From NCBI GenBank assembly GCA_907163375.1, contig CAJQUW010014401.1, forward strand, positions 124,001 to 188,000: 64,000 nucleotides of DNA. The letters run 5' to 3'. Position numbers and translations under genes: made by a program. How positions within the stretch are numbered: position 1 is the stretch's first letter; every line of letters begins with the position of its first letter. This stretch comes from Prostheceraeus crozeri (lineage: Eukaryota; Platyhelminthes; Polycladida; Euryleptidae). Under the pieces are notes generated by a model. That model was not told the origin of the DNA. It saw only the letters and a program-made list of their open reading frames with translations, and did no database searches. Below are positions 43,701 through 62,862 of the stretch, one piece after another.

Positions 43701-43750
43701 ATGTTATTGTCCAATGAGGATCATCATCCAATGAGAATCAAGCATTTCTT

Positions 43751-43785
43751 TATAAATAGCGAGCCTTCCACAGTGAGAATCATTC
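43751..43785 (+). promoter_or_regulatory. TATA-initiator promoter of the first gene
   Basis: TATAAATA at 43,751-43,758, with TCATTC at 43,780-43,785 and the initiator A 31 bp downstream of the TATA start. The first coding ATG (43,859) follows 77 bp later. Confidence 0.75.
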
Positions 43786-43858
43786 CATCGTTGAATCACA
43801 CGAGTGACGGACGCACATTTTCTCTCTCTCTAGTTCCCTGTTCTATTATCCAACTAAA

Positions 43859-44634
43859 ATGGTAAGTCGCTACTTCCCTCCCTCTCCTCCCTTGAACGTA
43901 AACTTAATACAATCTTTTTTCATTTTCAGGCATCTACTCCATCTGCTGCACTAGTAGGACAAAATGGCGGTCAAACGTTACAAGGTTCGCTACGGTCAGA
44001 TCATCTACAACTGAGGCCAGTGGAAGAAACATCCAAGGTACATAATCCTACACCGCTACAGCGTAAATTTAAACAAGCCTTGCGTTATGATGATCATAGC
44101 GTAGTACTCCAAACGGGAATGCTCCCTTCCACGGATGTCAAGATAATGCACAATCAGTATGGGGACTACATACTGATCCCCGTGAGTCCATACATTCGCC
44201 ACCAACTTGATATTATTGAGGAGTACGTGACATTAAATATGGACATTCCTACTCCTCTTGCTCAAGAGTGGAAGGCGAGAGATGACAAGGATACTCCCTA
44301 TAGAAAGATTTGGGATGGTAATCACATTTGCCTACCGGTATCACATTGGTGTACTTACTATAAGAAGGAGGGAGATCATTCAATACCCATCAGATGTGAT
44401 GAGCTCGGAGAAGGTACTTGGGATATCCTTTTCAAAGTGAATGGGCTATATTATGGTCGACACAAGGATAATAAAATAGCCTCTCTCTCCATGCATATGG
44501 AATCCATCCTATATATTCCGAAACCACCCAACGTGGACGACATAATTGATCAAATCCTTAACAGCAGTGGTACGAAGCGCAAGTCGGAGAAGAATGCTAC
44601 ATCAAAACGCAAATCAAAGAAGGAGAATTGCTAG
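43859..44634 (+). CDS. Spliced early-type protein of unknown function
   Basis: The reading frame has no ATG at its front. It is supplied by an upstream exon made of only the ATG (43,859-43,861), followed at once by GTAAGT; the intron ends TTTTCAG at 43,929. Exon 2 (43,930-44,634) continues in frame, giving about 235 residues. The N-terminus is Ser/Thr/Gln-rich, the middle folds into probable beta strands (a WDILFKVNGLYYGRH block near residue 175) and the tail is a Lys-rich KRKS-type likely nuclear signal. I do not recognise the family. The beta-rich core and basic tail would fit a nucleic-acid-binding protein (OB-like), which is a guess. It is the first gene inside the left end, under a TATA-initiator promoter. 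Confidence 0.8.
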
Positions 44635-46206: not shown

Positions 46207-46214
46207 ATGCAAAT
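46207..46214 (+). promoter_or_regulatory. ATGCAAAT motif before the basic protein gene
   Basis: ATGCAAATGTGG starts 6 bp after the previous stop and 46 bp before ATG 46,253. One of six such motifs ahead of genes in the element. Confidence 0.45.
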
Positions 46215-46252: not shown

Positions 46253-46609
46253 ATGGCGAAACGTAAAATGACGAAACGTAAAAGTCAAAAGTTTTCTTCA
46301 GCCATTCAAGCTCTCCGACGAATGAAAGCAAATCAGCGATACAATGCTATACGACATGCTAACGATAAATTCATTTGTGAAATTATTTCTCATGTGAGGA
46401 AGTTGAGGACGAAGAAATTAGCGCCAAAACAACGAAAGTTACTTAAGCGATATGCTACGAAATTGCGTTTCATCTCCAATCCTAAAGTCGCCCTTCAAAG
46501 AAAGAGGAAAACTCTAACACAAAAGGGCGGTTTCCTTTCAGCAATACTTCCAATGATAGCTCCTGCCGTGGGCAACCTATTGGGAAATATCTTTGGCTCT
46601 AAGCGTTAA
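46253..46609 (+). CDS. Small basic virion-type protein (pVI/pX-like)
   Basis: 118 codons, very rich in Lys and Arg, with an N-terminal KRK-M-TKRKS patch. The C-terminus has TQKGGFLSAILPMIAPAVGN, a Gly-Gly followed by an amphipathic/hydrophobic helix. Polintons and adintoviruses commonly encode a short protein of this build near the ATPase; the Gly-Gly-helix unit recalls adenovirus protein pVI or pX, which is cleaved by adenain and disrupts membranes or binds DNA. The element encodes its own adenain-type protease, and TQKGG is a candidate cleavage point. Exact role inferred. Confidence 0.6.
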   Translation: MAKRKMTKRKSQKFSSAIQALRRMKANQRYNAIRHANDKFICEIISHVRKLRTKKLAPKQRKLLKRYATKLRFISNPKVALQRKRKTLTQKGGFLSAILPMIAPAVGNLLGNIFGSKR

Positions 46610-46611
46610 TT

Positions 46612-46619
46612 ATGCAAAT
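46612..46619 (+). promoter_or_regulatory. ATGCAAAT motif before the ATPase gene
   Basis: ATGCAAATGTTG lies 2 bp after the previous stop and 29 bp before ATG 46,641. Confidence 0.45.
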
Positions 46620-46640
46620 GTTGAGTCTCAAAGTAATAAA

Positions 46641-47258
46641 ATGGATTTCAGACTTCAATGTGATAAAGTTCTGACTGTATCAGGTCCATCTCATGCAGGT
46701 AAAACTGTTTTCACGCTGAATTTATTGGATAAAAGAAGGGAGTTGTTTAAGGAACCTATCAATCGAGTGATTTGGTGTTATGGTATTTATCAACCGTCGC
46801 TGTTTCAGGAATTACAAAGTCGCAACTTTATTCGACATGAAGGAATTATTCCAGTGGATAAACTTCAGTCTAATGATGTTGTTGTATTGGATGATTTATT
46901 AAAAGAAAGTAAGAATTCAAAAGATGTTACAGATATGTTCACTCGCGCAGCACACCATAAAAGGTGTTTTATCATCTATATTACACAAAATTTGTTTCCT
47001 GATGGAAAAGAAGCTCGTACACGAAACCTGAATACACACTATTATGCTATTTTCAAGAATCCGCGAGATAAAAGTCAATTTGAAATTTTAGCGCGACAAG
47101 TTGCACCCAGAGGATCAAAAGCCTTAATTGAAATTTTTCAAGCAGCTACTGAAAAACCATACGGTTACTTATTCATTGACTTTACGCAAGAGTGTCCGGA
47201 AGAATTTAGATTTCGAAGTGATATTTTGAAAACTCCCATGATTATCTACAAACTATGA
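46641..47258 (+). CDS. Packaging ATPase (A32/FtsK-HerA type)
   Basis: 205 codons from ATG 46,641; the frame is open further upstream but has no ATG there. Walker A is GPSHAGKT (residues about 15-22) and Walker B is VVVLDDL (about 88-94). A conserved TQNLF and a NPRDKSQ block follow at about 130 and 155, as in Polinton and large DNA virus genome-packaging ATPases. It would drive DNA into preformed capsids. The stop overlaps the next start (ATGA at 47,255), implying translation from one transcript or tight packing. No defect seen. Confidence 0.9.
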   Translation: MDFRLQCDKVLTVSGPSHAGKTVFTLNLLDKRRELFKEPINRVIWCYGIYQPSLFQELQSRNFIRHEGIIPVDKLQSNDVVVLDDLLKESKNSKDVTDMFTRAAHHKRCFIIYITQNLFPDGKEARTRNLNTHYYAIFKNPRDKSQFEILARQVAPRGSKALIEIFQAATEKPYGYLFIDFTQECPEEFRFRSDILKTPMIIYKL

Positions 47259-47948: not shown

Positions 47949-48164
47949 ATGAAGCAGATGTGTTGCTTGCCATGTAATGAGCCGCCAGAGGTGAATGTCG
48001 TTGTCACTTGCACTTGCTGCGCCAGCTCTCATAATGAAACCCCTAAGCAATGTGAACACGATCGCAAAACCGCTAAAGCTAAATGCTGCAGTTGTTGTAA
48101 ATGTAGAAAGGGAAGAAAACAAAAAGATGAGAAGGAGGAAAAAGAGTCAGCCGTCATCGACTGA
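47949..48164 (+). CDS. Small Cys-rich ORF
   Basis: 71 codons starting 1 bp after the previous stop. It contains CCLPC, CTCCASS and CCSCCKCRKG, 14 Cys in all, then a KD-EKEEKE acidic/basic tail. It overlaps the integrase start in another frame. The Cys spacing resembles no zinc-finger family I can name. It may be a real small metal-binding protein or an alternative 5' part of the integrase gene. Confidence 0.4.
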   Translation: MKQMCCLPCNEPPEVNVVVTCTCCASSHNETPKQCEHDRKTAKAKCCSCCKCRKGRKQKDEKEEKESAVID

Positions 48165-49220
48165 ACGTTTGAAGTCAATCTATTATGATGTAAAACATCC
48201 GGCAGGATTTGCATCTATCAAGAAATTATCAAAAGCGAGTGGTCTTCCACAATCACAAGTGAAACGATGGTTAAAGGGTCAGGCTACCTATACACTCCAC
48301 AAACAAGCGAAAAAGAAGTACCGCACCCGCCATTATATTGTTCATGACATCGATGAACAGTGGCAAGCAGATTTGTGCGATGTTGCCTCCATTTCAAAAC
48401 ATAACTCGGGCAATAATTTTATTTTAACCGTCATTGATATTTTCTCGCGTTATGCGTGGGCTCAACCTTTAAAAACTAAAGAAGGGAAAGGAGTAGCAAA
48501 AGCATTTTTCGAAAAACAATTTTTCGAGAAGGTCGCATTCCAAAAAGAATTCAGAGTGATCAAGGAAAAGAGTTTGAAAATCAGCATGTGACAAGATTAT
48601 TTGAGAGGCATGACATTGAGTTGTTTAGTGTAAAGAGCGCTTATAAAGCTGCACTCGTTGAACGTTTTAATCGCACATTAAAAAATCGTTTGTGGCGACA
48701 TTTTACTGCCAACTTGACACAAAATTGGACAAAGGTTCTACAAGATACACTCCATGCCTACAATCACTCTATCCATCGTTCTATTGGACTCAGACCAGTA
48801 GATGTAAATGCTGACAATGTAGATAAAGTGCGCGAATCATTCCAACGTAAACGCACTCATGTGAAAAGTGATGTGAAAATTGGCGATAAAGTTCGTATCT
48901 CAAAAGTGAAAAGTGTTTTTGCTAAAGGGTACCTCCCGAATTGGACAGAGGAGGTATTTACAGTATCAAGGATTAATCAAAAAGACTCTCCGACCACCTA
49001 CAAGTTGAAAGATTACGATAATGAAGAAATTGAGGGTAGCTTTTACCGCGATGAGATTGAGGTAGTCACTGAAAGTGAAACATATTTGGTAGAGAAAATC
49101 ATTCGATGTAAAAAACGGCAAGGTGAAGAATGGTGTCTTGTTAAATGGACTGGTTATCCTTCAAGTATGAACTCTTGGATGCGTCGTGCCGACATCTTTC
49201 ATCTAAGTGATCGACAGTGA
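48127..49220 (+). pseudogene. Polinton integrase with chromodomain, frameshifted
   Basis: Retroviral-type DDE integrase that inserts the element into host DNA. The N-terminal part (from ATG 48,127) has an HTH-like region and WQADLCDV with the first catalytic Asp, then DIFSRYAWA. The second part has QSDQGKEF (second Asp) and VERFNRTLK (catalytic Glu, about 33 residues later). The C-terminus carries a chromodomain (YLVEKIIRCKK, then WCLVKWTGYPSS), usual in Polintons and thought to target chromatin. The reading frame changes by one position at about 48,505-48,530, inside a duplicated ATTTTTCGA word rich in A and T runs. No stop precedes the shift; the first frame ends at 48,591. An inactivating indel or an assembly error is likely. 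Confidence 0.88.
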
Positions 49221-49223
49221 TTC

Positions 49224-49231
49224 ATGCAAAG
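49224..49231 (+). promoter_or_regulatory. ATGCAAAG motif before the pX-like gene
   Basis: ATGCAAAGTTGT, 4 bp after the integrase stop and 38 bp before ATG 49,262. Confidence 0.45.
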
Positions 49232-49261: not shown

Positions 49262-49717
49262 ATGAATCCAACTGCCTCATTTTATTCACGACCCTCCTAC
49301 GTAAGTGGTGGAGGACAAATTTACATCGGTGCTCGCCGCCAACGTGGAGGTAGCATACTTGGTGCACTGAAATCTGTTGTAGCACCTCTCATATCCAATG
49401 TCGGTAGATCTTTAAAACGAAATGTTTTAAGTAATGCCGTTGGCTTTGCTGGTGATGTTGCTAGTGATCTTTCCAGAGGTAGAAGTTTTAAGAGCAGTTT
49501 GTTGAATCGTGGGAAGGAACGCGGTTTAAAAACATTGAAGCAGACCATTGCTGGTGTTACTCAAGGAAAGAAATCACCTAAACGAATGAGAAAAGGAAGG
49601 AGGAAACATCGCGGAGCTGGTAAGGTGCGATCTTCAGTCAAAAGGCATTCACGCAAACGTCGCAGAGGCTCTAATCATTCATCAGGCGCTAAACGACGAC
49701 GCTGCTATAACTTCTAA
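49262..49717 (+). CDS. Basic virion-core-type protein (adenovirus pX-like)
   Basis: 151 codons. The N-terminus has SGGGQIYIGARRQRGGSILG, two Gly-Gly sites that resemble adenain cleavage points. A Leu/Val-rich amphipathic segment follows, and the C-terminal third is mostly Arg/Lys (GKRSPKRMRKGRR-type and SRKRRRG). Proteins of this layout directly precede the capsid gene in adintoviruses and Polintons and are compared with adenovirus core or membrane-lytic proteins. It is 3 bp from the capsid gene, consistent with joint expression. Confidence 0.6.
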   Translation: MNPTASFYSRPSYVSGGGQIYIGARRQRGGSILGALKSVVAPLISNVGRSLKRNVLSNAVGFAGDVASDLSRGRSFKSSLLNRGKERGLKTLKQTIAGVTQGKKSPKRMRKGRRKHRGAGKVRSSVKRHSRKRRRGSNHSSGAKRRRCYNF

Positions 49718-49719
49718 TC

Positions 49720-50997
49720 ATGGAGTGTAAAACTTCCGGTTTTTGTTTATTCGATCAACAAGCCATACAGACAGATATTCTTAGTTCAAGTATTGTAGAT
49801 TATCATCCTCGAACAGCTGAGAATGCTGGCCCCATTGAATTTGTTATTCCTGGTGGTAGTGATGACTACATAGATTTGAGTTATGCGATGCTTGATTTGA
49901 GGTTTAGAATTCAGCAAGCAGATGGAACTGCTATTGACGATGCACATAAAGTTGGACTGAACAATTTACCATTGACTACATTACTTCGCGATGTTTCTCT
50001 AACGATTGGAGAGCAGCAGGTGGAAGGTGGTCAAAGCGATTATCCCTATAAATCATATTTCACTCATGTATCGCAGTTTCATCCAGCAGCACAAAAAAGT
50101 CATATGGAAGCCATGGGATGGTACAGAGATGAAGCAGGAAAATTTGATGTTGAAACAAACAGTGGCTTTGTAAAGCGATCTGCTATGATTAAAGATAGTA
50201 GAGTATGTCAGCTATATGGTCCGCTGAATTTAGACTTCTTTAGACAGTCAAAGTTTTTACTCTGTAATACCAGCATGCGACTCAAGCTGACATTGAATAA
50301 GCCTGAATTTGCGCTGAATGCATTTGCTAAAGTTGACAATTTTAGAATTCATGTGGAAGATATTGCACTTTACATTCGTCGAGTAGTACCGAATCCAAGT
50401 GTCATTAGAGGGCATGCTGAAGGTCTTAACCGCCAAAATGCCATTTACCCCGTTCAGCATACAAAGCTTCTCACCTTTACAATTCCGAAAGATCAAAAGA
50501 GTTTCATGAAAGATGGCCTCTTTCCATCGGAAGCACCGAAGCTCCTCATGGTGGCAATGGTTGAAAATGATGCATTTAATGGTAATATAAAGAAGAATCC
50601 TTTCAATTTTAAACACAATCAGTTAAGTGAAATTGCTTTACGTGTTAATGGTGTGAGTCATCCTGGTCCACCCTACAAACCAGATTTTGCTTCGGATCAA
50701 TTTATTCGCAGTTATGTTGATTTTATGGATGTCTTTGGCTTTTACAATACGGATGATACCAACGGACTGACTATGAAAGAGTTTAAGAGTGGATATACTA
50801 TTTATGCATTTGATTTGACTGCTGACAGCGATATTAGTGCACCCTATCGTCAAGCGAACGTGCCTCATAATATTCGTTTGGATTTGACGTTCAAAAGAAC
50901 ACTACCTGAGACGATCAATGTATTAATTTATGCAGTCTTCGATTCAAATATTGAAATTACAAAGTATCGTGACGTGATTCTTCAGTATAATCGTTAA
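49720..50997 (+). CDS. Major-capsid-type (double jelly-roll, F54H12.2-like) protein
   Basis: 425 codons. The early part has IDLSYAMLDLRFRI, then NNLPLTTLLRDVSLTIGEQQV and YPYKSYFTHV, the pattern of the first jelly-roll of hexon-like proteins. The second half (about 215-425) contains a second beta-rich domain ending in TFKRTLPETINVLIYAVFDS. This size and pattern match the protein annotated in animal genomes as F54H12.2-like, a capsid homologue in Polintons and adintoviruses. It would form the virion shell. The stop overlaps the protease start (TAATG at 50,995-50,999). No defect was seen, which argues that the element may still make virions or was integrated recently. Confidence 0.8.
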   Translation: MECKTSGFCLFDQQAIQTDILSSSIVDYHPRTAENAGPIEFVIPGGSDDYIDLSYAMLDLRFRIQQADGTAIDDAHKVGLNNLPLTTLLRDVSLTIGEQQVEGGQSDYPYKSYFTHVSQFHPAAQKSHMEAMGWYRDEAGKFDVETNSGFVKRSAMIKDSRVCQLYGPLNLDFFRQSKFLLCNTSMRLKLTLNKPEFALNAFAKVDNFRIHVEDIALYIRRVVPNPSVIRGHAEGLNRQNAIYPVQHTKLLTFTIPKDQKSFMKDGLFPSEAPKLLMVAMVENDAFNGNIKKNPFNFKHNQLSEIALRVNGVSHPGPPYKPDFASDQFIRSYVDFMDVFGFYNTDDTNGLTMKEFKSGYTIYAFDLTADSDISAPYRQANVPHNIRLDLTFKRTLPETINVLIYAVFDSNIEITKYRDVILQYNR

Positions 50998-51458
50998 TGA
51001 GTTGGTTGACTGCTGACGATATTAAGACTAAAGTGCAGCGTAATGCAGACGAAGCGACGTTGAAAGCTTTCGATAATGTCTATTCACTCGATACCTTACC
51101 ACCTGCAGTAAATCACTATCCCATCTTTATTGTGCTAAACACTCATTCACAGAATTTAGGCGGTGAGCATTGGAAAGCGATCTTTATTGGAGAAGACCGA
51201 CGTGGTGAACTATTTGACTCTCTTGCTCAACCTCCAAATATACCAACACAGCAGTGGTTGAGAAAACATACGCGTCAATATCAGCGAAATGAACGCATAC
51301 TACAACATCCACTTTCATCAACGTGTGGTGCTTTTGTACTGTACTTCATCTTAAAACGTTTACATGTATCTCGATTTGCATCTGTTATTCAAAACTTTTC
51401 ATGTAATCCATCCTCTAATGAAAAAATGATTTGTAAGTTCTATCATGATTTGAAATAA
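50997..51458 (+). CDS. Adenain-type cysteine protease
   Basis: 153 codons. The catalytic set of the adenovirus-type (C5) protease is visible: GGEHWKAIF (His, about residue 60), ELFDSL (Asp, about 77), LQHPLSSTCGAFVL (Gln of the oxyanion hole and catalytic Cys, about 118). It would process the basic virion proteins and capsid during maturation. ATG overlaps the capsid stop. The stop codon lies inside AATAAA (51,454-51,459), so transcript end and coding end coincide. Confidence 0.9.
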   Translation: MSWLTADDIKTKVQRNADEATLKAFDNVYSLDTLPPAVNHYPIFIVLNTHSQNLGGEHWKAIFIGEDRRGELFDSLAQPPNIPTQQWLRKHTRQYQRNERILQHPLSSTCGAFVLYFILKRLHVSRFASVIQNFSCNPSSNEKMICKFYHDLK

Positions 51459-51489
51459 AAACATCATGTTGGAAAAATTGTTTTTTATT
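51454..51489. terminator. Convergent polyadenylation signals overlapping two stop codons
   Basis: AATAAA on the plus strand at 51,454-51,459 overlaps the protease stop. AATAAA on the minus strand at 51,489-51,484 overlaps the TBP-like stop. The two convergent genes are only about 25 bp apart. Confidence 0.65.
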
Positions 51490-52030
51490 TTACAATCCGC
51501 TGGGTACGTACATACTCAATGAGATAGTCTAGGATCATATTTGCTTGTTCATGAGATTTTAGTCCAGTAATGATCACTTTACTATTATGAAAGATTGCCA
51601 CATGCACAGGCAACCAACAACTAATGAGAGCTGCAGGAAAAAGTTCGGGTTCATAACACAAACTGTAACTGCTGGTACGAATCTTCAAAAATGATAGACT
51701 GTCACTCAATTGAGTAGAGATCACCATATTGTCCACAGTCAGATTCGACATCACACACCTCTCCCTCTTCCATATCCGACGTAGTAGTCTCTGTAGCTCT
51801 AAGCGCATTGACTGCGCCGATGAATGAGAAAGGGCGCCGAGAATCTGTACAGTCCCATTTGGGAAGAGTTGAAGATTCCGCGAATTGTTCATCTTCACCA
51901 CTAACATTTGAGGACGGCCCGGGTAATACTTGCTGTTTGGAAGCTGTTGGCGTAATGTTGTGAGATCGATTTTGGTGTAGAGTCTGAAGCGACGGAGAAT
52001 GTTGACGATGGTGTAGCGATGGCGCTTCAT
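51485..52030 (-). CDS. TATA-binding-protein-like (TBP-fold) protein
   Basis: 181 codons from ATG 52,030, the length of a bare TBP core. Two repeats are evident. Repeat 1 (about residues 5-85) has YTIVNILRRFRL, IDLTTLRQQL, YYPGRPQMLVVKM and LQLFPNGTVQILGA. Repeat 2 (about 93-178) has VMSNLTVDNMV, YEPELFPAALI, AIFHNSKVIITGLK and a closing helix. YEPELFP is the signature of the second TBP repeat. Of the four DNA-kinking Phe positions of TBP, three are kept (LFPNG, ELFPA, AIFHN) and one is Pro (RPQML). It should bind TATA DNA and set transcription starts on the element's own promoters, one of which drives this gene. Its first 329 nt overlap another ORF. Confidence 0.82.
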   Translation of the reverse strand: MKRHRYTIVNILRRFRLYTKIDLTTLRQQLPNSKYYPGRPQMLVVKMNNSRNLQLFPNGTVQILGALSHSSAQSMRLELQRLLRRIWKRERCVMSNLTVDNMVISTQLSDSLSFLKIRTSSYSLCYEPELFPAALISCWLPVHVAIFHNSKVIITGLKSHEQANMILDYLIEYVRTQRIVK

Positions 52031-52352
52031 GATGAAAGAATGAGTAAATTGAGCGATGTACCTTCCTTTTATACTTTTCCCAACTACCTTGATGAAATGT
52101 GAAGTTAGTATGAAGTTGGGAATGATAGAGTTGAATTCGCCGATTGTTGACGCGCAGCCAGATGCGATTTCCAATACGTGAATGTCTTTTCATATAGAAG
52201 TATTTCAAGTCCTTCATGATATGATGTAGAGATTGAAAATGACGATAAGATAAAACAAACTCTCTTCTCACATTTCCAGTTGAATCTTTGAAATAGACGT
52301 TTCGATCATGATCCGTTTCAATACGTTGTAGGGAATCTAATTTCCAACTCAT
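51702..52352 (-). CDS. PC4-like protein 2 with long tail overlapping the TBP-like gene
   Basis: 216 codons from ATG 52,352. Residues 1-110 match the neighbour at 52,375-52,731 along their whole length (LDSLQ, then D-R-N-V-Y-F-K, WEKYKRKVHRSI). Two repeats of strands then helix (V-x-F, then L-S-x-R-x-F-x-x-L; later WLRVNNRRIQLYH, FTFHQGSWEKY) recall the PC4/SUB1 coactivator fold; this is pattern-level evidence only. Residues about 110-216 are His/Ser/Pro-rich then acidic (DMEEGEVCDVESD) and are read in a different frame through the first TBP repeat. The 109 stop-free codons in the overlap suggest a real tail, but this needs expression evidence. Confidence 0.55.
   Translation of the reverse strand: MSWKLDSLQRIETDHDRNVYFKDSTGNVRREFVLSYRHFQSLHHIMKDLKYFYMKRHSRIGNRIWLRVNNRRIQLYHSQLHTNFTFHQGSWEKYKRKVHRSIYSFFHHEAPSLHHRQHSPSLQTLHQNRSHNITPTASKQQVLPGPSSNVSGEDEQFAESSTLPKWDCTDSRRPFSFIGAVNALRATETTTSDMEEGEVCDVESDCGQYGDLYSIE
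52038..52073 (-). promoter_or_regulatory. TATA-initiator promoter of the TBP-like gene
   Basis: TATAAAAG on the minus strand at 52,073-52,066 and TCATTC at 52,043-52,038, initiator A 32 bp downstream, eight bases before ATG 52,030. The promoter lies inside the coding region of the PC4-like gene and supports the ATG choice. Confidence 0.8.
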
Positions 52353-52374: not shown

Positions 52375-52731
52375 TTAAGATTTGCATAGTAGGGCGATGA
52401 ACTCACGACGAATAAATGTCATGATGGAGCGATGTATGCATCTTCTATACTTCTCCCAATTGTATTTGCGAAATGAGAAACAGTTTGCGGAATGAGAATG
52501 GTAGATTTGAATTTCATTTCTGTAATGTTGAAGCCAAACTTGATCACCCAAGGAGATGAATCTTAATGTTTCAAAATATTCCAAATCCCTCATGATATCA
52601 TTGAGGTTGACAAATTGTCGCCATGTTAATGTAATTCCTCTTGATGTATGACCATGAGAATTTTTGAAATGTACGTTTCCATCACGATCAACTCTGATAT
52701 ATTGTAGAGAGTCCAAAATCCAAGTCTTCAT
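52375..52731 (-). CDS. PC4-like protein 1 (paralogue)
   Basis: 118 codons from ATG 52,731 (upstream frame lacks ATG). It contains DGNVHFKNSHGH, GITLTWRQFVNLNDIM, then SLGDQVWLQHYRNEIQIYH and WEKYRRCIHRSI. The first block resembles PC4-family DNA-binding domains (G-x-V-x-F then G-I-x-L-T-x-x-Q/F-x-x-L), which bind single-stranded DNA and help TBP-dependent transcription. The tandem relation to the next gene shows a duplication inside the element. Family assignment is tentative. It lies divergently to the virion-type pair, with 35 bp between start codons. Confidence 0.55.
   Translation of the reverse strand: MKTWILDSLQYIRVDRDGNVHFKNSHGHTSRGITLTWRQFVNLNDIMRDLEYFETLRFISLGDQVWLQHYRNEIQIYHSHSANCFSFRKYNWEKYRRCIHRSIMTFIRREFIALLCKS
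52380..52387 (-). promoter_or_regulatory. ATGCAAAT motif before PC4-like gene 2
   Basis: ATGCAAAT on the minus strand inside the last codons of PC4-like gene 1, 28 bp upstream of ATG 52,352. Confidence 0.4.
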
Positions 52732-52737
52732 GATGTT

Positions 52738-52745
52738 ATGCAAAG
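52738..52745 (+). promoter_or_regulatory. ATGCAAAG motif in the divergent 35-bp intergenic region
   Basis: TTATGCAAAGTTGC lies between the divergent starts at 52,731 and 52,767. It is 29 bp upstream of the plus-strand ATG. Confidence 0.45.
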
Positions 52746-52766
52746 TTGCAGATTAGCAATATAAAA

Positions 52767-54164
52767 ATGTCGTTTTATCATATTTTGCTTAGCAATGCGG
52801 CTACAAAGAGATTTACTAGCAATCGAGCCGCACTCTTTTCTACTCCCATTGATCATGCACAACAGCTAAATGGGAATTGGGAAGTGGGTGTCACTCAACT
52901 TGTTTATAGCAACTGTGTCTATACTTTTGATCATGAGGTGATGACTATTAATATGAGGCGTACAGCTGCTTATCAATGTGAAAAGGGGTGCCGAGTATAC
53001 ATTCCACAGTGGCCAAAGAAAGATCTCTTATCATGTAAAAAGTTTATATATGATTTCTTGAATAAAGCGTGTAAACATATTGTCCAATTTACTCCGCACA
53101 ATGATGATTATAATTATGTACATCATGTAGTTGAGAAAGATTGGATTGTTGGTTTAAGTCCAAGTTTAAGAAATGATTTAGGCTACCTCGCTAGCGCCTT
53201 AACAAGCTATGATAATTTTAACGTTAATTACCACATAAGTGGTCATAAGCAGTTAATATATCGAGAGGAAGCTTATTATGTAGATCTTATTCCAAGAAAT
53301 GAGAAGACGTTGGTGAAGAAGATTGTGATTAAGCCAAGAAAGACAAACATGACTCCTGAAACATTATTGAAGAAATTTAATTATCTCCTTCGAGTTGATG
53401 ACAAACAAGTGGCAACATTGACTTATATTAAATCATCTAATCATATTGCAATAAGTAAATTAAATGATGATGATCTAGTATTAGTTTGTTCAAAAGATTT
53501 TCATCAGTTCTTACGACATCGTTCTGCAGCTGTTCATGGAAAATCTGATATGCAACATTTACCATGTGAAAGGTCAAATCAATTTGATACAGAATGGGCC
53601 GTATCTTTATACAGAAAGTGTGTAGAGCCTTTTGGTGGTTTCTTACATGAAACAAGAGTGTTGATGCCTCGCATTATTACTTCGGTTAAATTGGTTGTAG
53701 ATTATTTAAATGAAGTGATTAATGAGCAACATATTTCATTTTCTGAAAAAGAAGGTACTTTGTCTCTCACTATAAATGGAAAAGGTATTGAACTAATTAT
53801 GGATAAAACTCTAATGGACATTTTGGGTTTTGATCAAAATATCTTTAAAAGTGGTACTGTAACCAAAGCTAGCGCAGACATGTCGCTATCGCGTCGTATT
53901 AACTATTTTCAGATATATTCCAATATTGGTGAAGATGTACGTGTGGGAGATGTTGAAGCTCCATTGCTAGCAATGATACCATACCAGCCAAAAAGCTGCA
54001 GTATTTTATCTGAGCATACTTTCAAGAAAGTGCATTATACAAAGCTGAAATCAAACTACATCCCACAAATTGATATTGCCATTTATGATGATGCTGGTGC
54101 GTTGATTCCTTTTCATAAAGATGCTGTGACAAGTATTACACTCCATTTCCGAATGAAGAGTTAA
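52767..54164 (+). CDS. Virion-type protein A (WEVGV family, tandem paralogue)
   Basis: 465 codons from ATG 52,767. The N-terminus reads YHILLSNAATKRFTSN, then LNGNWEVGVTQLVY, the same order as in the next gene (LPSNASMNKFPKN, LEGEWEVGVSSICY). This start block is common in a family of proteins found with Polintons in animal genomes. The rest is beta-rich (two repeats of a strand pattern at about 200-300 and 350-465). Minor capsid, penton or spike protein is plausible; I cannot assign which. Its stop is 10 bp before the next frame opens. Confidence 0.6.
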   Translation: MSFYHILLSNAATKRFTSNRAALFSTPIDHAQQLNGNWEVGVTQLVYSNCVYTFDHEVMTINMRRTAAYQCEKGCRVYIPQWPKKDLLSCKKFIYDFLNKACKHIVQFTPHNDDYNYVHHVVEKDWIVGLSPSLRNDLGYLASALTSYDNFNVNYHISGHKQLIYREEAYYVDLIPRNEKTLVKKIVIKPRKTNMTPETLLKKFNYLLRVDDKQVATLTYIKSSNHIAISKLNDDDLVLVCSKDFHQFLRHRSAAVHGKSDMQHLPCERSNQFDTEWAVSLYRKCVEPFGGFLHETRVLMPRIITSVKLVVDYLNEVINEQHISFSEKEGTLSLTINGKGIELIMDKTLMDILGFDQNIFKSGTVTKASADMSLSRRINYFQIYSNIGEDVRVGDVEAPLLAMIPYQPKSCSILSEHTFKKVHYTKLKSNYIPQIDIAIYDDAGALIPFHKDAVTSITLHFRMKS

Positions 54165-54171
54165 TGCAAAA
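54164..54171 (+). promoter_or_regulatory. ATGCAAAA motif before virion-type protein B
   Basis: ATGCAAAAGTATG begins on the last base of the preceding stop codon, 10 bp before ATG 54,174 and 40 bp before the more likely ATG 54,204. Confidence 0.4.
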
Positions 54172-54203
54172 GTATGCTAATATATTTTTCCAATGTGAAT
54201 AAT

Positions 54204-55724
54204 ATGGAAAGTGAAAATAAGGACTCGTTTCTAATCTACTTGCCCAGTAATGCTTCTATGAATAAATTTCCCAAAAATAAACCATCAGACTATCGAGTAG
54301 AATTAAATCGGCCACTGCATTTAGAAGGTGAATGGGAAGTTGGCGTTTCTAGTATTTGCTATGATAGCAATATTCAGAATGTGAATGATTTGGAAGAAAT
54401 GATATTGACTCCTCGCACCCATGATGGAATAACGATGAATAATGCATTTCAGTTCCCATACAATTTAACATCAGATGGAAAGTGGAACTATGAATGGATT
54501 CAGATAAAATCAGATTCTTATGAGCCATTTGGGAATGAGAAAATTATTAAGGCATTCAACAGTGGTAATACTTCCATCATGAAGAATAAAAATCAGAAAG
54601 CTTATGAGTTTACTATCTATCATTGGAGTGGGAGACAGTTCCTCCGCTTTCATTCTTTTACTAAAGGTCTTACGCTGAGGTTGGATAGTGAATTCTATCC
54701 ACATCTTGGTTTTGGTCATGGACTACATCTAACGTCAATTGCTACTGCAAATGTTAAAAAAGTTTATTCAACTCGAATCAACAAATTTCATTATAGATTT
54801 AAAATATTTGATGAAGATGTTGTAGAATGCGAAGAACGCATCATTTTGAAAAAGCGTGGTGTTCAACCTTTATCACTTATTGAGTTAGTAAAACGATGGA
54901 ATGAGACTGTGGGTAAGAAGTATGGAGAGAAAATTATGGCGGACAAAAATAAGTTGGTTATTCAGAAATATAATGACAAACTTACAGTTTATTTCTCTCC
55001 AACCTTGCGTCATTTTGTAAGACATTATACGCCTATTATTGGAAGCGGTGTGGTGTATGGTTCTCATGAATATCACACTAAAGCTGATTCAGTTAATGAT
55101 GAATGGTGGGTGGACATCTATGGCGATCGCATCAAGAAAATTTACCAGTCTTATGAAGAATCTAAAGTTGCTATCAATATAATGCCGCGTCTATATCATA
55201 CAGTTGAAAGCTTCATTCATGTAGTAAATCCTTATATACAACAGAAGTTGAAGCATGTGATGAAAAGTAAATATGATGTAAAGACACACCACATTTCGTT
55301 TTCAATTGAAAAACAACGCGTTGTTCTGAAACTGGGTGATGACATTCAATGTCAATTGAGTAAAAATTTGAAAAAACTCTTTGGCTTTTCAATGCTACAA
55401 ACTGTGTTTGCTGCTGCGCATACGATTGGTATAGAAACACCAATGACACTTGATAAACATGAACAACACCTTTACATTCAAAGTGATTTGATTTTACCTA
55501 TTTCTGTTGGCGAGAAAAAAGAATACATTTTACGTGATTTCATTCATGATAAAGACGCTTCATATGGAATAGTCGAGAAGATGTTTGAATCTATTTTCTA
55601 TCATCCCGTCGTCAAACAAACTATACCCTCTATTGCTATCAAAATTACCAATGGTTTACAAGAGTGTATCCATGTGAAAGATACTAAATCCCTCGTAACT
55701 TTAGTGTTTCGGAAAACAAAGTGA
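54204..55724 (+). CDS. Virion-type protein B (WEVGV family)
   Basis: About 506 codons from ATG 54,204 (ATG 54,174 would add ten residues; the conserved family start begins near SFLIYLPSNAS). It shares the N-terminal block and overall plan with the preceding gene: N-terminal strand block, central region around residues 200-300 with RHYTPIIGSGVVYGS (compare RHRSAAVHGKSD in A), and a C-terminal beta-rich domain beginning PRLYHTVESF (compare PRIITSVKLV). So the pair arose by tandem duplication and diverged strongly. Structural role likely but unproven. Ends 22 bp before a convergent poly-A region. Confidence 0.6.
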   Translation: MESENKDSFLIYLPSNASMNKFPKNKPSDYRVELNRPLHLEGEWEVGVSSICYDSNIQNVNDLEEMILTPRTHDGITMNNAFQFPYNLTSDGKWNYEWIQIKSDSYEPFGNEKIIKAFNSGNTSIMKNKNQKAYEFTIYHWSGRQFLRFHSFTKGLTLRLDSEFYPHLGFGHGLHLTSIATANVKKVYSTRINKFHYRFKIFDEDVVECEERIILKKRGVQPLSLIELVKRWNETVGKKYGEKIMADKNKLVIQKYNDKLTVYFSPTLRHFVRHYTPIIGSGVVYGSHEYHTKADSVNDEWWVDIYGDRIKKIYQSYEESKVAINIMPRLYHTVESFIHVVNPYIQQKLKHVMKSKYDVKTHHISFSIEKQRVVLKLGDDIQCQLSKNLKKLFGFSMLQTVFAAAHTIGIETPMTLDKHEQHLYIQSDLILPISVGEKKEYILRDFIHDKDASYGIVEKMFESIFYHPVVKQTIPSIAIKITNGLQECIHVKDTKSLVTLVFRKTK

Positions 55725-55903: not shown

Positions 55904-58900
55904 TTATGTCAATACATCTCCTGAATGTGGTAGCGTGAGTTTTATTCTTTTGGGTGGAGGTATGTTTGTGTCAGGATGTCCATGTGGAAGAGATGTGTTA
56001 TGTCCTATCCAACACCTCTTATCCTCCCATGCTGAAAGTGCTCGTTTCTTGAACGTGTACGTTTTCACAGTATGAACTTGAGATTTTAAGATTGTCATAT
56101 TGACAAACGTTATAGTTTTATTTTTATAGGCCTTCTTATAGGACCGATGTTTCATTTTATGAACAATGGATTTTGATATACCTTTAGCACGCTTAATACT
56201 ATCTGCACATTCTTTTAGTTTCATGGAATACATTTTAGGACGGAGGAGAATCATTTCATCTATTTCCTTTCCTGCTGTTTCATCCTTAAAACAACCAAGT
56301 TTGGCTTTATTCTGTATGGAATAGAGTGGATGAGTGGGATTGTAGTTAGATGTATCGAAATATTTTTCTAATGACTTACCTACTTCATTAAAATTTAAAT
56401 CTTTTTGAGTGGTAATTCCTAAAAAGAAACTATCTGTATCACCACCCAGCAAGCGAACCTCTTTTACGAGAGGGCATGGTTTTAATATTTTGTAGAAGAG
56501 TTGATACATTTCAAGCTTGGAATAATCTAAAACGGCTTGCCCAATATAGATGGGTTTGCACAACTCAACTTCTGATTTAATCATTTTAACACCTACAAGA
56601 TCCTCATCGATGATGTCTCTATCAATGAAAAGAGGTGATGAGGTCAATTTGTGATATTTTTGTTCATCAACGACTAGTTTGTAATTCATACGTTTTCTAA
56701 CATCCTCCATGGTCTTTCCGAATAGACTATTATTCTTATATTTATAAAAATCCTTTTCAAAATTATTTTGGGCGAGTGCACGTTTTTGACTGTTACTATC
56801 TATGTAGGGTTTGAGGAAGGCTTTCTGTCTAAATTTGATAATGCGGTGAACTGACTTTAGAAGCATGCCCATTTCTAAATAGAATTTTAATATGCAGAAG
56901 TGTACGAGATAATTTTTCTTATCATATTGGGTGAGTAAAAGTTTGCGGCATGGTTTGTACCTTGGCTGTCCACACTCTGTTAAGTTATTATGAAATTGTG
57001 ACATGAATGGTGAAAACATATCTTCAGTCACTTCGCCAGATTCAGGTGCGAGTGGGAAATCAGCAGTTTTATTTTTAATACTATTTGGATAAATCAAATC
57101 CACTTCAAAATAATATCCCCAATCACCTTCATCTGGAATATTCAGTATGTTTGAAGGGTTGGAGTAATACTCAAGCTCATTTTGATTTAACCAACTAAAC
57201 TCGGAATGAGGTAGTGGTTTAGACAGTGAACTGCCATATAAATTATTTTGGTCATAGTACTTTAGGTGGATATGATCATCACCTACTGTTTCAGATTTTA
57301 TATGATGTTTATTTACAAATGTGAGACCACCGCGTATTCCGCGCTCAAATATATTATACATCTCCGGGTCTTGTAAGAGATGAATGGTCTCACCAGTCAT
57401 TTTAAAGGCTGATTTAAAGGACATGGCTGGTAGACTGACAAAGTGGATAGGATCTAATTTGTCTTCTTCTAATGCCACTCGTCGAAACTCCTGAAAGACA
57501 TCAGCCAGCAAAATGACATCTAATTCTAAGTAAGCGATCATATAATCGCCAAACGTTTTACAATTAAATTTTAACCATGCCTCTTGAGCATGTTCATAGT
57601 CCTCTACTGGACAATCTTCACCCGTCAAATCGTTTTTGAATTTGTCAATGGAAGGAAGGGTTGTTTCATTTAGTTTAGACATTGAGCTAAAATACGCATA
57701 AGGAAAGACTCCTTTGCGAGTGATTATTTCATCCGTTAAGTTTGGATAGTGTTTCTTCAAAGTTTGACTATGGGGAAGAAACTTGAGATTACGAACGAGA
57801 GAAGCTAGTGACGCTGACATGAATTGAAATGAATCTAAAAATTTTATTTCGAAGAAGACTGTCTTATTTTCTTTAGTTTTATCTACTGGTACTTTTGCTG
57901 TCATTGCCATGAATTTTTCTCTCGTTTGTGCTATTACATTAAACTGCCACGATTTCATCTGGCTCAACCCTCCTTTTATGAGCATATGACTGTCATAGCC
58001 CTTAAAGTTATGAAAAATGACGGGTAGTACACGACGTCTCAACCTAAGTGAAAAATTACATTTGGAGCAGAGTGCGTTTCTAAATTTACCAGTGATGTGA
58101 TCATGATCACGCACTTTCTTAATTTTATCGTCATCAAACGTTTTATGACATTTAGGACAGGATGTGCAACTTTCAAATTTTTGTTTGTCTTCATCTGACA
58201 TATGTAGTGACTTACGCTGCAATTGGGAATCATATGATTGTTGAAATTTTGCAGCTTTATCGAGAAATTCTAGAAATTTTGAAATGCAATCTTCACCTTG
58301 CCAAGTATGCATTTTGTTTTGTCTATTCCTAAAGTGGTCATGCCATACTTCATAGCAGGATATGGCTGCTGGCTTGTGGATGATATCATCAATGTAGCAT
58401 TCTATGTCTGCGTAAATGACACGCAGGGGACTTAATTCGTCACCATTATCCCTATGTGAAAATATTTTATCTTTGGGCATGCGTTCCATTTGTAATTTAC
58501 CTCGCTTGCACCATTCATAGTGAGTTTCAAATTTATCTTTACTCCAAAATGAGCGGATGCAGCGGTCGCATACAAAATGTTCACCTCTTTTAGAGTGCCC
58601 CAAGTGAGTGTACAAGCGAGAGATTTTGGGAATACCACAGTAGTGCCATTCCTCGCTATCATCTTGTTTTACTAATAAGAGGTTGACTACACGTTCATAA
58701 CAAGTTGAACGTGAATTATAGCGGGCACCCTTCAACCCCTTCTCCCACACGTGAACGACAATTTTAATCTTATTATGTTTTTCGAACGTTTCTACATCTT
58801 TGATTTTCATGTTGTTACTATCACAACCTTCAAAGTCTAGTTCATCCTCCCACTGTCTATAGCTATAGGTGCGATCTCGATGCGCGTTGATATCATTATA

Positions 58901-59876
58901 GTGAAGGATGGATAGGACTGCATATTTGAAACACTGTGATTTACAATCAACATTGATGACAGCTTTCTTATTATACAACGTTTTTGGAAGTTTAAATGTG
59001 CCTCGAGCTGCATGACTTTCTAATAGGGAAATTTTGAATATGGCTGAGTCCACACCATCAAAAATGAGAGCGCTGTCGCGTTGATTGAATTTATCTACAT
59101 TTGATTTTAAACATTGAATGTGAAAATTTAGCCAAGACTCGCAGTCTACAACTTCGGTTGCGGAAGAGGAAGGAATATGAAACTGTATTCTCTCCGTCAC
59201 TTGACCCGTTTGAAAATCTATTTTAATATATTTTAGTTTAAGGTAGATGAGCGCCTTCATTCTAAAATTGTCTAAATTATTGAAGAGCGCTTCGATAATG
59301 TTAGAATTTTGAAGGAGCCACCCAGGAAAATCTACAATTTGAGTATTGGACTCCATGCAGTAGTCGCGTACTAAATTATTATGTGAAACATTAATGAGGG
59401 AGATGGTAGAGGTACCGTTGGTGTAGTGATCATTTGCATGCGTGTGTTGAAGTCTGTGCGAAGATCGCTGAAAGTGACTATCAAAAGAAAGAGGGCACAA
59501 ATCGCAAGGAAAGGAGATGTCATCGTCAGAATCAACTTCACCTCCGGAGATTGACACCGCTTTGCGTTGACACACACGTTGTTTGATGTGTCGAAGGAGA
59601 CTGTGCTTCCTTGTAAACATATGTCCGCAGTCGGCACATTCCCACTCGTTGCCTTGCCGCGAGAGTCCTGAGCTGGAACTCACATCACCTGAAAGAGAAA
59701 TCATTCTTTCATCTCTGTTCAAGCCTCAGTGTAGTGTTACAACCTACCTTGACTCAATAACTCTAAACTTTCCTCGAGAAGAGAGGGCGTTGGTGATGAA
59801 GTTGATGCCTGAAATTGAGGAAGATGCTATTAGTCACACGTTTGAGGGAGATGAGAGGAAATTTTCAACTTACCAT
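55904..59876 (-). CDS. polB: Protein-primed DNA polymerase B, three exons
   Basis: Replicates the element. Exon 1 is only the ATG (59,876-59,874) followed by GTAAGT; exon 2 is 59,808-59,748 (donor GTAGGT); exon 3 is 59,688-55,904 after CTCTTTCAG. Phases agree. In exon 3: two zinc-finger-like units near the front (WECADCGHMF; FPCDLCPLSF with H-x3-H); a domain shared with the 45,465 gene (about 150-240); a Cys/His region starting VDCKSQCFKYA (about 255) that resembles OTU-like proteases; exonuclease motifs YADIECYID, FHNFKGYDSH and YLELDVILLAD; polymerase motifs DQNNLYGS (A), KNNSLFGK (B) and GGDTDSFF (C). All catalytic residues are present and the frame is intact. Residue numbers count from the open frame at 59,722. 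Confidence 0.92.
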
Positions 59877-59984
59877 TTCAACGAAATCAAGTTTAAGGTT
59901 GATACTTCTACAAGATAGAGACTTCACTCAAATAATAGTCAAAGAGAGAGATCGTGCGTTCGTCACTTGTATGATTCACAGATT

Positions 59985-60019
59985 AAATGAAATGACCTGA
60001 ATGTCACTTTGCTTATATA
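59985..60019 (-). promoter_or_regulatory. TATA-initiator promoter of PolB
   Basis: TATATAAG on the minus strand at 60,019-60,012 and TCATTT at 59,990-59,985, initiator A about 31 bp downstream. The ATG-only exon follows about 110 bp further on. Confidence 0.75.
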
Positions 60020-60054
60020 CTTTCATCCTCTTCATTCATTGGATGTTCATTCTG

Positions 60055-60106
60055 ATTGGCTGCTTGTGTATACTTAAGAATTAGAAAAATGTTAAAGTTA
60101 TCATTA
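60055..60106 (+). promoter_or_regulatory. Divergent promoter of the 60.1-kb gene
   Basis: ATTGG (inverted CCAAT) at 60,055, TATACTTAAG at 60,069-60,078 and TCATTA at 60,101-60,106, initiator A 34 bp downstream of the TATA start. Together with the PolB promoter it forms a bidirectional control region. Confidence 0.55.
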
Positions 60107-60570: not shown

Positions 60571-60635
60571 TAAATGTTTATTTCGTATTATCTTTGCTTT
60601 CATACTGACTTACTTGAATGGGGTTTTAGTGAATA

Positions 60636-61025
60636 ATTTAACCATGTATACTTTTTCATTTGGAAATAGTAGCACGCTTAGTCTAACTTGTAAATCTAAA
60701 AACATTTCATATGGACGATGATGGTAGATAAAATAGTGTCAAATAAATTAAGATAGCTTACACTTCTGATACAGGGATAGCAATCGACTGCGATCCATGT
60801 GTAAAGAGCTTGTTAGACTATGGATGGGCTTAAGTGGATGATTTAACCATGTATACTTTTTCATTTGGAAATAGTAGCACGCTTAGTCTAACTTGTAAAT
60901 CTAAAAACATTTCATATGGACGATGATGGTAGATAAAATAGTGTCAAATAAATTAAGATAGCTTACACTTCTGATACAGGGATAGCAATCGACTGCGATC
61001 CATGTGTAAAGAGCTTGTTAGACTA
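60636..61025. repeat. 205-bp-period tandem duplication
   Basis: Copies 60,636-60,820 and 60,841-61,025 look identical over 185 bp, separated by 20 bp. No convincing coding frame. Each ends with a CAGGGATAGCAATCGACTGC word that also occurs twice in the 519-bp repeats at 61,865 and 62,384. Confidence 0.85.
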
Positions 61026-61521
61026 CGGAAGAGAGAAGTGTGTTATGTTGCGTGTGGCGCGTGAGTGTCCTCCCATTTCATTCCATTCATCAATTCGTCT
61101 CATTGATAGAGACAGGTAGAACTCATGGTTCTCATAACGTATGCAATGGAAAGTTTTAGGCAACCTTCGACAGTTGGCTAAATGTCGCCCTGGCGCGAAT
61201 GCATACTACGTTGAGACAGAGGCAATCACTTGCAAACATGACGCAGAGAGGTTTAACAAGATTGACCATTGCCGAATGTCCCTTGCGGTATACATAGCTA
61301 CGGGTTTCACCGCCGCCCTTTACAGGAACGCCCGTCGAAAGGAAGTATTACACCGAACTGCATTTGCAACGTTCAAGTTGACTGATAGCAGATTCAACTT
61401 AATGATAGTATTCGCCAGTCCGAAGACTGCCCAGGGCAAACCGCGAGGAGGTTCTATCATGTCTTGCCCCATGGTGGCCCTTAAGAGAGCCGATGGTTCG
61501 TTCTCGGGAGTAACAAGATGA

Positions 61522-61773
61522 CTATTGGCTTGAATAGTCAATAGGTATGACGGTTAGGTTCTCGTATACCCTATACCGCCTAAGCCGTGGTGGTGCATCT
61601 GGCACCTTTCGGATGCGGGTGGTATTTGGAGTCCACACCTCATCCGTCCAAACGATCCTCTTGATCTTCCCCTTCTTCTCATCCTCATCCCACTCGTCGA
61701 GGATGACGAACTCGGGAATGCCGTTGTCTTCATCAGTGAAGACGGGAATATTGTCGGCAGATGTCGCTTCCAT
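61522..61773 (-). CDS. Small acidic protein, copy 1
   Basis: 83 codons from ATG 61,773. An acidic stretch (FVILDEWDEDEKKGKIKRIVW at about 22-42; first 20 residues of it are the key part) is followed by PDAPPRLRRYRVYENL. No known domain. A TATA-initiator promoter 15-48 bp upstream supports it. Copy 2, 519 bp to the right, is identical in protein. Confidence 0.6.
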   Translation of the reverse strand: MEATSADNIPVFTDEDNGIPEFVILDEWDEDEKKGKIKRIVWTDEVWTPNTTRIRKVPDAPPRLRRYRVYENLTVIPIDYSSQ

Positions 61774-61787
61774 CGTGACTTCAAATT

Positions 61788-61821
61788 GAATGAGAAGCGC
61801 TACAATCTTCTGGCTTATATA
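61788..61821 (-). promoter_or_regulatory. TATA-initiator promoter, small gene copy 1
   Basis: TATATAAG at 61,821-61,814 and TCATTC at 61,793-61,788 on the minus strand, initiator A 30 bp downstream. Confidence 0.75.
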
Positions 61822-62040
61822 GGGTTTTCAACAATGAATTGCTCAACAGCGAATCAGAATGCTTCAGGGATAGCAATCGACTGCATAATGTTCAAGTTGA
61901 CTGATAGCAGATTCAACTTAATGATAGTATTCGCCAGTCCGAAGACTGCCCAGGGCAAACCGCGAGGAGGTTCTATCATGTCTTGCCCCATGGTGGCCCT
62001 TAAGAGAGCCGATGGTTCGTTCTCGGGAGTAACAAGATGA

Positions 62041-62292
62041 CTATTGGCTTGAATAGTCAATAGGTATGACGGTTAGGTTCTCGTATACCCTATACCGCCT
62101 AAGCCGTGGTGGTGCATCTGGCACCTTTCGGATGCGGGTGGTATTTGGAGTCCACACCTCATCCGTCCAAACGATCCTCTTGATCTTCCCCTTCTTCTCA
62201 TCCTCATCCCACTCGTCGAGGATGACGAACTCGGGAATGCCGTTGTCTTCATCAGTGAAGACGGGAATATTGTCGGCAGATGTCGCTTCCAT
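62041..62292 (-). CDS. Small acidic protein, copy 2
   Basis: Exact duplicate of the 83-codon gene in the first 519-bp unit, with the same promoter. Identity at both DNA and protein level points to a very recent duplication, gene conversion or an assembly effect. Increased dosage of an early protein is one possible benefit (inference). Confidence 0.6.
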   Translation of the reverse strand: MEATSADNIPVFTDEDNGIPEFVILDEWDEDEKKGKIKRIVWTDEVWTPNTTRIRKVPDAPPRLRRYRVYENLTVIPIDYSSQ

Positions 62293-62306
62293 CGTGACTT
62301 CAAATT

Positions 62307-62340
62307 GAATGAGAAGCGCTACAATCTTCTGGCTTATATA
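62307..62340 (-). promoter_or_regulatory. TATA-initiator promoter, small gene copy 2
   Basis: TATATAAG at 62,340-62,333 and TCATTC at 62,312-62,307 on the minus strand, same spacing as copy 1. Confidence 0.75.
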
Positions 62341-62556
62341 GGGTTTTCAACAATGAATTGCTCAACAGCGAATCAGAATGCTTCAGGGATAGCAATCGAC
62401 TGCATAATGTTCAAGTTGACTGATAGCAGATTCAACTTAATGATAGTATTCGCCAGTCCGAAGACTGCCCAGGGCAAACCGCGAGGAGGTTCTATCATGT
62501 CTTGCCCCATGGTGGCCCTTAAGAGAGCCGATGGTTCGTTCTCGGGAGTCGTCATC

Positions 62557-62823: not shown

Positions 62824-62828
62824 GATTG

Positions 62829-62862
62829 AAATGAAATGAAATGAGAGGCAGTGGTTTATATA
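62829..62862 (-). promoter_or_regulatory. TATA-initiator promoter of the 62.8-kb gene
   Basis: TATATAAA at 62,862-62,855 and three overlapping TCATTT words, one at 62,834-62,829 with initiator A 30 bp downstream. The fourth 137-bp core begins 22 bp further upstream. Confidence 0.65.

Follow-up and report, generated by a model that had tools for sequence, protein, structure and literature searches.

Why would a virus-like element in a flatworm carry a TATA-binding protein (TBP), and what might this protein do? We analyzed a window of 64,000 nucleotides from Prostheceraeus crozeri; all positions below refer to this window. A preliminary description of the locus, made from the letters alone, had proposed that an open reading frame (ORF) at 51485–52030 encodes a 181-residue protein with both TBP repeats.

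The TBP homologue and its family

The ORF is on the minus strand, with its ATG at 52030 and its stop at 51485, and its 181 codons are intact. The preliminary description had suggested a profile search with PF00352. When this search was run, PF00352 was the sole Pfam-A match to the protein (E = 7.6e-21; 74.2 bits, with a cut-off of 22.9), and it matched in two stretches, so both the repeats and the coordinates are borne out. Based on PF00352, TBPs in the PDB, and family alignments, the N-lobe is at about residues 6–85 and the C-lobe is at about residues 94–175. A scan of NCBIfam gave 11 models: ten are for TATA-box-binding proteins (best E = 1.7e-19, all ten under their full-length cut-offs) and the remaining one (MPN552, E = 0.062) is a chance match. 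Searching the PDB with phmmer gave 37 distinct sequences, of which 35 are TBPs or TBP fusions (the best is 2z8u, E = 2.8e-14); the two TonB rows (E = 1.6–1.7) are chance matches. Furthermore, a profile of the window TBP and 46 homologues matched solved TBPs with E-values from 4.9e-24. By these sequence comparisons, the 181-residue protein is a real, intact, and conserved TBP homologue, and a chance resemblance is excluded. A two-lobe saddle fold is predicted because of the homology in sequence to solved TBPs.

The window TBP is not a one-off: by sequence similarity it belongs to a broad family. Among the 5.8 billion predicted proteins that were searched, 99 were candidates, and 60 of these are homologues at E = 0.01 or better. 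These are 34–81% identical to the window TBP; each has a precomputed match to PF00352, and none is annotated by name. The largest contig that bears any of them has 24,690 bases. With the window TBP, the family set comprises 61 sequences, in an alignment of 47 (A1) and a more distant second group of 14 (A4). Re-scanning A1 found PF00352 in 47/47, and the other 14 have the precomputed match. In IMG/VR viral contigs, no relatives were confirmed for the TBP, PolB-like, capsid-like, or small-ORF queries; nor were any confirmed in GTDB genome contigs for the capsid-like and TBP queries. Phage records gave no match, and plasmid records gave only four TBPs from haloarchaeal plasmids (28–32% identity). 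When the window TBP is compared with four cellular references, 22–23% of aligned residues are shared with each one; this level is alike for all four and favors neither a eukaryotic nor an archaeal source.

To count residues, all 61 family sequences were aligned with the four cellular TBPs. Contact residues are given in human numbering. Human F197, F214, F288, and F305 are the phenylalanines that kink the DNA. In the alignment, these positions have the expected spacing, and they correspond to P40, F56, F131, and F147 of the window TBP. As had been described, three of the four phenylalanines are present and the fourth is proline, and the signature YEPELFP is found at residues 126–132. A definition of TBP that demands all four phenylalanines does not cover the window protein: on the evidence of its sequence, it is a TBP by profile homology but not a canonical TBP by its set of residues.

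The departures are in the N-lobe. On the DNA face of the C-lobe, N257, V259, P289, and F305 are found in 61/61 sequences, and F288 and T313 in 60/61. The C-lobe stirrup also has the pair of glutamates that contact TFIIB (E127 and E129 in the window TBP). Across the family, E284 is kept in 60/61, with a single Asp as the exception, and E286 in 61/61. In A1, E129, P132, A133, and L135 are invariant (47/47), and in A4, EPELFPAALISKW of the stirrup is invariant (14/14). Few stretches of the family alignments are as conserved as the TFIIB stirrup. In the N-lobe, F214 is kept in 61/61 sequences and N167 in all 49 that have a letter at this position. The F197 position is proline in 57 of the 58 sequences with a letter (three have gaps). 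The V220 position is glutamine in 61/61, a residue that all four cellular references lack there. T222 is lost in every member (Leu in 55, Met in 4, and Phe in 2). The E191 position, which is presumably a contact for TFIIA, is Lys in 45/58 and Arg in 4/58. Mean identity to the Arabidopsis TBP is 15% for the N-lobe and 29% for the C-lobe (among members with over 40 aligned columns); in the window protein itself, the two lobes are alike (19/85 and 19/80 residues shared). Judging from these residues, the family has a canonical C-lobe and an N-lobe whose DNA face was rebuilt in a fixed way.

The element and the overlapping frame

The ORFs around the TBP gene resemble those of Polintons and adintoviruses as a set, which agrees with the preliminary description of a virus-like element. 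Several of the individual matches are below their cut-offs, and the PolB-like and capsid-like proteins lack profile support, so this call, which comes from predicted proteins, rests on the gene set. The element is roughly 16 kb, with approximate ends. A left end segment (43711–43943, plus strand) and a right end segment (59795–60059, minus strand) are similar in inverted orientation, as candidate terminal inverted repeats; they have diverged, and their local alignment scores 110, versus at most 52 in 20 shuffles. The left segment has an inward TATAAATA (TATA at 43751), an ATG, and an intron-like GTAAGT...TTTCAG; the right segment has an inward TATATAAG at 60019, directed towards the PolB-like ORF. 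Because the inward TATA, the ATG, and apparently the same short intron are shared, inverted, between the ends, the first exons of the left-end and PolB-like genes may be of one kind.

Between the ends, on the plus strand unless noted, are a small basic ORF (46253–46609; Adeno_PX, E = 0.0024, below cut-off); a packaging-ATPase-like ORF (46593–47258, first ATG at 46641; Pox_A32 and AAA_14, both E = 0.022 and below cut-off); a chromodomain integrase in two ORFs (47995–49220; Chromo is above cut-off with E = 2.7e-7, while rve_3 at 0.0023 and rve at 0.0084 are below); a small basic protein (49262–49717) with no significant profile match; a capsid-like protein of 425 amino acids (49720–50997), assigned by its place and conservation, with no Pfam or PDB match; and a Ulp1/adenain-like cysteine protease (50997–51458; Peptidase_C48, E = 0.0012, 19.2 bits with a cut-off of 20.7, and Peptidase_C5, E = 0.043, both below cut-off). 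The capsid-like protein has 264 homologues, and the best 120 of these are 53–100% identical to it. Beyond the TBP are ORFs of 465 amino acids (52767–54164; no significant Pfam match) and 516 amino acids (54174–55724; no Pfam match). Last is a PolB-like ORF of 1,272 amino acids (55904–59722, minus strand). We call it a polymerase from motifs recognized by eye; scans of Pfam and NCBIfam gave no polymerase profile and there was no PDB match. It does have an Endonuclease_7 segment at residues 499–557 (E = 8.3e-7, above cut-off) and a weak N-terminal zf-C2H2 match (E = 0.0035, below cut-off). The TBP gene does lie between the protease and PolB, as had been noted, but so do four further ORFs (the 216-residue ORF discussed below and those at 52375–52731, 52767–54164, and 54174–55724). 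A frame change near 48.5 kb breaks the integrase, so this copy of the element may be decaying, though its TBP gene is intact. Searching the window for Rfam families and tRNAs found nothing.

Other features of the window were noted as well. Just to the right of the element are tandem repeats at 60621–61029 (205 nt, two copies) and 61366–63032 (about 519 nt, three to four copies). By eye, we saw a pair of GIY-YIG-looking ORFs at 30396–31144 (Penelope-like), nearly identical and inverted relative to each other, and transposase-like ORFs at 8446–9141 (minus strand, mariner/Tc1-like) and 20501–22667 (plus strand, Harbinger-like). The transposase-like ORFs point to a host genome of animal type.

The TBP gene is overlapped by another minus-strand ORF, of 216 amino acids (51702–52352). 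Its N-terminal part of about 105 amino acids is paralogous (42% identity) to the product of the 118-residue ORF at 52375–52731, also on the minus strand, and its C-terminal part overprints the TBP. Relative to the TBP gene it is the +2 frame, and within that gene it stays open for about 108 codons. None of 2,000 synonymous shuffles of the TBP codons matched this (the median was 18 codons), and repeating the shuffles gave the same outcome. Of the 30 same-strand frames that were compared in 15 genes, the runner-up was reached by 9/400 shuffles. An antisense frame of the 54174–55724 ORF is open for 94 codons, which 0/400 synonymous shuffles reached, so unusual openness is not unique to the TBP overlap. 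The overprinted tail is acidic (17 D/E and 7 K/R of 110 residues) and rich in S, T, and P (31/110). Most likely, the TBP frame and the overlapping frame are both in use.

The 118-residue protein has four homologues, one at 99% identity, and profile scans with it gave only weak, chance-level rows. By eye, the two small minus-strand proteins had suggested PC4/Sub1 (LTxxQFxxLxDIM). This is unsupported: there was no Pfam match to PC4, hhalign gave probabilities of at most 1.6%, and a profile search of the PDB gave six chance rows. An internal repeat in these proteins was also unsupported. Our literature search found nothing that joins Polintons, PC4, and transcription.

Is the TBP family linked to Polinton genes elsewhere? 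We compared the sizes of contigs bearing 60 TBPs, 4 small-ORF homologues, and the best 120 of the 264 capsid-like proteins, with jittered sizes as the control. TBPs and capsid-like proteins share one contig size (7106), versus 0.48 expected by jitter (P = 0.39, chance level). TBPs and small ORFs share one (1771 bases, with TBP P0002 and small-ORF homologue P0063; P = 0.034), and small ORFs and capsid-like proteins share two (12876 and 11119; 0/5000 jitters). This suggests that outside the window, linkage of the TBP family to Polinton genes is supported for the closest relatives only.

Promoter motifs and the proposed role of the viral TBP

The preliminary description had pointed to a TATA box at 52,073. 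It exists (TATAAAAG, 52066–52073, minus strand; the ATG of the TBP gene follows 43 nt downstream), but it lies within the coding sequence of the upstream 216-residue ORF, in another frame. The translated leader of homologue P0003 retains SIKG at the same 15-residue distance as TATAAAAG, as judged from the protein. We considered that TATA boxes might be the element's general promoter and rejected this: TATAWA is within 100 nt upstream of 1/17 starts (TBP only), versus 6.3% of random stretches, which is no more than chance. (This list of starts included some that are not ATG; with ATG 52767 as the start, the TATAAA at 52760 lies directly against it.) The inward TATA boxes of the end segments are over 100 nt from their ATGs.

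A different motif, ATGCAAA, is within 70 nt upstream of 6/18 ORFs, on the coding strand, if the first ATG is mechanically taken as the start. On the plus strand, it is at 46207–46213 (46 nt upstream of ATG 46253), at 46612–46618 (29 nt upstream of ATG 46641, of the ATPase-like ORF), at 49224–49230 (38 nt upstream of ATG 49262, at the head of the run of small basic, capsid-like, and protease genes), at 52738–52744 (29 nt upstream of ATG 52767, which is the same ATG that TATAAAAA at 52760 abuts), and at 54164–54170 (10 nt upstream of ATG 54174). On the minus strand, it is at 52381–52387 (35 nt upstream of ATG 52352, of the 216-residue ORF). Some of these genes head tight runs: the stop of the capsid-like gene overlaps the start of the protease gene, and the stop of the ATPase-like ORF overlaps the next start. 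ATGCAAA was first spotted by eye, but the control covered all 7-mers: the best 7-mer reached six genes in 3/3000 random placements and 0/1000 block-shuffled sets. Between 43.6 and 60.7 kb there are nine occurrences, six of them gene-linked. Because the motif is no denser in the element than in the rest of the window, the evidence lies in its placement. ATGCAAA is a candidate core promoter, perhaps a late one, or a POU-type site; that the viral TBP reads it is our hypothesis.

The 18 element ORFs of at least 110 amino acids that were scanned gave no match to a TFIIB or RNA polymerase profile (the scan covered neither smaller or spliced ORFs nor the ORFs at 50257–50616 and 59583–59918, which reach 110 amino acids but are nested antisense). 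The element may encode a TFIIB-like protein that is too divergent, spliced, or small for the scan.

We propose that the gene probably encodes a virus-borne TBP that serves as an alternative promoter-recognition factor and borrows the host's TFIIB and Pol II for a modified promoter. The C-lobe would hold on to the first half of a TATA-like box and offer host TFIIB its docking site. The N-lobe would bring its family-wide rebuilt DNA face and its charge-changed position for contacting TFIIA. The viral TBP would bind a variant box at the element's own genes, would then recruit host TFIIB and Pol II, and would evade those host factors that target the N-lobe, namely TFIIA and perhaps Mot1/NC2. We propose the variant box, the recruitment of TFIIB, and the escape from TFIIA because the C-lobe is canonical and the N-lobe is rebuilt. 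The fold, DNA binding, TFIIB docking, promoter choice, and timing of the viral TBP are inferred. That one half of the protein is standard and the other is rebuilt suggests that it would steer the host's gene-reading machinery to the element's own genes. Instead of re-aiming DNA binding, the changes at F197, V220, and T222 could make it weaker.

If DNA is bound poorly, then the protein might be a competitor that keeps the surface for TFIIB, titrates host TFIIB, and damps host transcription, with no role at viral promoters. The conservation of the TFIIB stirrup fits with this, as does the absence of one kinking phenylalanine and two base-contacting residues from the N-lobe. However, a pure decoy for TFIIB would need no DNA-face residues, and N257, V259, F288, P289, F305, T313, F214 (61/61), and N167 (49/49) are equally fixed, so we consider a decoy unlikely. 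It is much less probable still that a host-type TBP was recently taken up as cargo and has an ordinary TBP function with no special viral role. The overall match to PF00352 is strong, and TBP genes are reported from large dsDNA viruses (PMC7221094, PMC12085832, PMC11464507). But just 19/85 residues of the N-lobe and 19/80 of the C-lobe are in common with the Arabidopsis TBP, and the derived N-lobe residues that the family shares, such as Gln for V220 in 61/61 with no counterpart in the four cellular references, largely refute a recent uptake. Because of this low identity and the shared Gln, the window TBP family is, as far as sequence can tell, an old and separate lineage. We also considered that the 216-residue ORF might be the true product and the TBP frame a relic. 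The 108 open codons of the overlapping frame, with 0/2000 synonymous shuffles, would fit, but the TBP is open for 181 codons, and 60 homologues show its residues to be conserved as protein sequence. This refutes a relic for the TBP frame, and we give the idea the least credence of all.

The alternative that we take most seriously, while still doubting it, competes with only the promoter part of our proposal: ATGCAAA might be an octamer-type site for POU-domain factors of the host, with the viral TBP using an ordinary TATA box or none. Three of the six gene-linked sites read ATGCAAAT, the octamer sequence that POU factors bind. A weak point is that the sites are 10–46 nt before start codons, which is close for an upstream activator.

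Building on the proposal of a virus-borne TBP, we speculate that a Polinton-type virus with a half-rebuilt TBP has a two-step gene programme; taken as a whole, this is a tentative model that we would not expect to hold in full. In this model, the early genes (PolB-like, the left-end gene, and TBP) would be on an ordinary TATA read by the host's TBP, and at the structural genes the viral TBP would recognize a core box of the TATGCAAA type. The canonical C-lobe would hold the 5' half of this box and hand over to host TFIIB, while the altered N-lobe would read the 3' half. The overprinted acidic protein from upstream would be a co-activator of the viral TBP.

Comparison with known elements and viral TBPs

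Like Polintons/Mavericks and adintoviruses, the window element has a gene for a chromodomain integrase; its Ulp1/adenain-like protease and its ATPase-like, small basic, capsid-like, and PolB-like proteins are putative further counterparts. It differs by adding a TBP, a pair of small ORFs that are paralogues, and an overprinted frame. The preliminary description had not known TBP as a standard gene of Polintons or adintoviruses; we too found no report of a TBP in a Polinton, Maverick, or adintovirus in the literature searched, which does not prove its absence from print. Adintovirus-like elements of Amoebidium, whose polymerase is closest to those of adintoviruses, are described as carrying the late transcription factor VLTF3 (PMC11244446).

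If our proposal is correct, then a Polinton-like TBP with a fixed TFIIB contact and a re-made N-lobe would make up a very small system by which a virus-made TBP re-aims host Pol II, and a natural experiment on which lobe of TBP sets the choice of promoter. TBP may also point to a transcription programme in a group that, according to PMC7805220, has been put forward as ancestral to many eukaryotic dsDNA viruses.

Cellular TBPs (PF00352, both eukaryotic and archaeal) have in common with the window family the two lobes, the DNA- and TFIIB-contacting residues of the C-lobe, and F214 and N167 of the N-lobe. The family differs from them at F197 (Pro), V220 (Gln), T222 (mostly Leu), and E191 (mostly Lys or Arg).

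Viral TBPs in the cited work are from giant viruses, poxviruses, mirusviruses, and herpesviruses, and their contact with host TFIIB is often lost (PMC10132985, PMC7221094, PMC12085832, PMC12529657, PMC11464507). According to PMC7221094, TBP-like sequences are in 107 viral genomes; C.L3.2 and C.L3.4, whose glutamates are tied to TFIIB docking, are variable, with about 40% conservation at C.L3.2 and a negative charge kept in some; a TFIIB-like protein accompanies the viral TBP in nearly all cases; and use of host TFIIB was judged unlikely. An algal giant virus (PMC12085832) and megavirus chilensis (PMC11464507) are likewise described as having TBP plus TFIIB. The large dsDNA viruses of PMC7221094 share with our family a two-lobe TBP on a dsDNA element, with changed contact positions in the N-lobe. 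They differ in having about 40% conservation at C.L3.2 and mostly a viral TFIIB, versus Glu in 60/61 and no TFIIB match in 18 ORFs for the window family and element. In mirusviruses, TBP is reported from 59% of genomes, so TBP is a recurrent viral gene there as well (PMC10132985). Compared by their description, mirusviruses differ in their very large genomes (one contiguous genome is 431.5 kb), their HK97-fold capsid, and their own RNA polymerase subunits.

A parallel to our reading of the window TBP, as a TBP mimic that uses host Pol II at a variant box, is the vTBP of beta- and gamma-herpesviruses: KSHV ORF24 is described as acting on late genes via host Pol II at the variant box TATTWAA (PMC12529657). 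ORF24 has the four phenylalanines and is without the TFIIB glutamates, and the window family is the opposite, with the glutamates kept and one phenylalanine lost. In PMC7221094 and PMC12529657, viral TBPs tend to lose the TFIIB glutamates, while the window family goes the other way. What appears to be new, as predicted from its sequence, is a viral TBP variant that combines a host-type TFIIB face with a rebuilt N-lobe.
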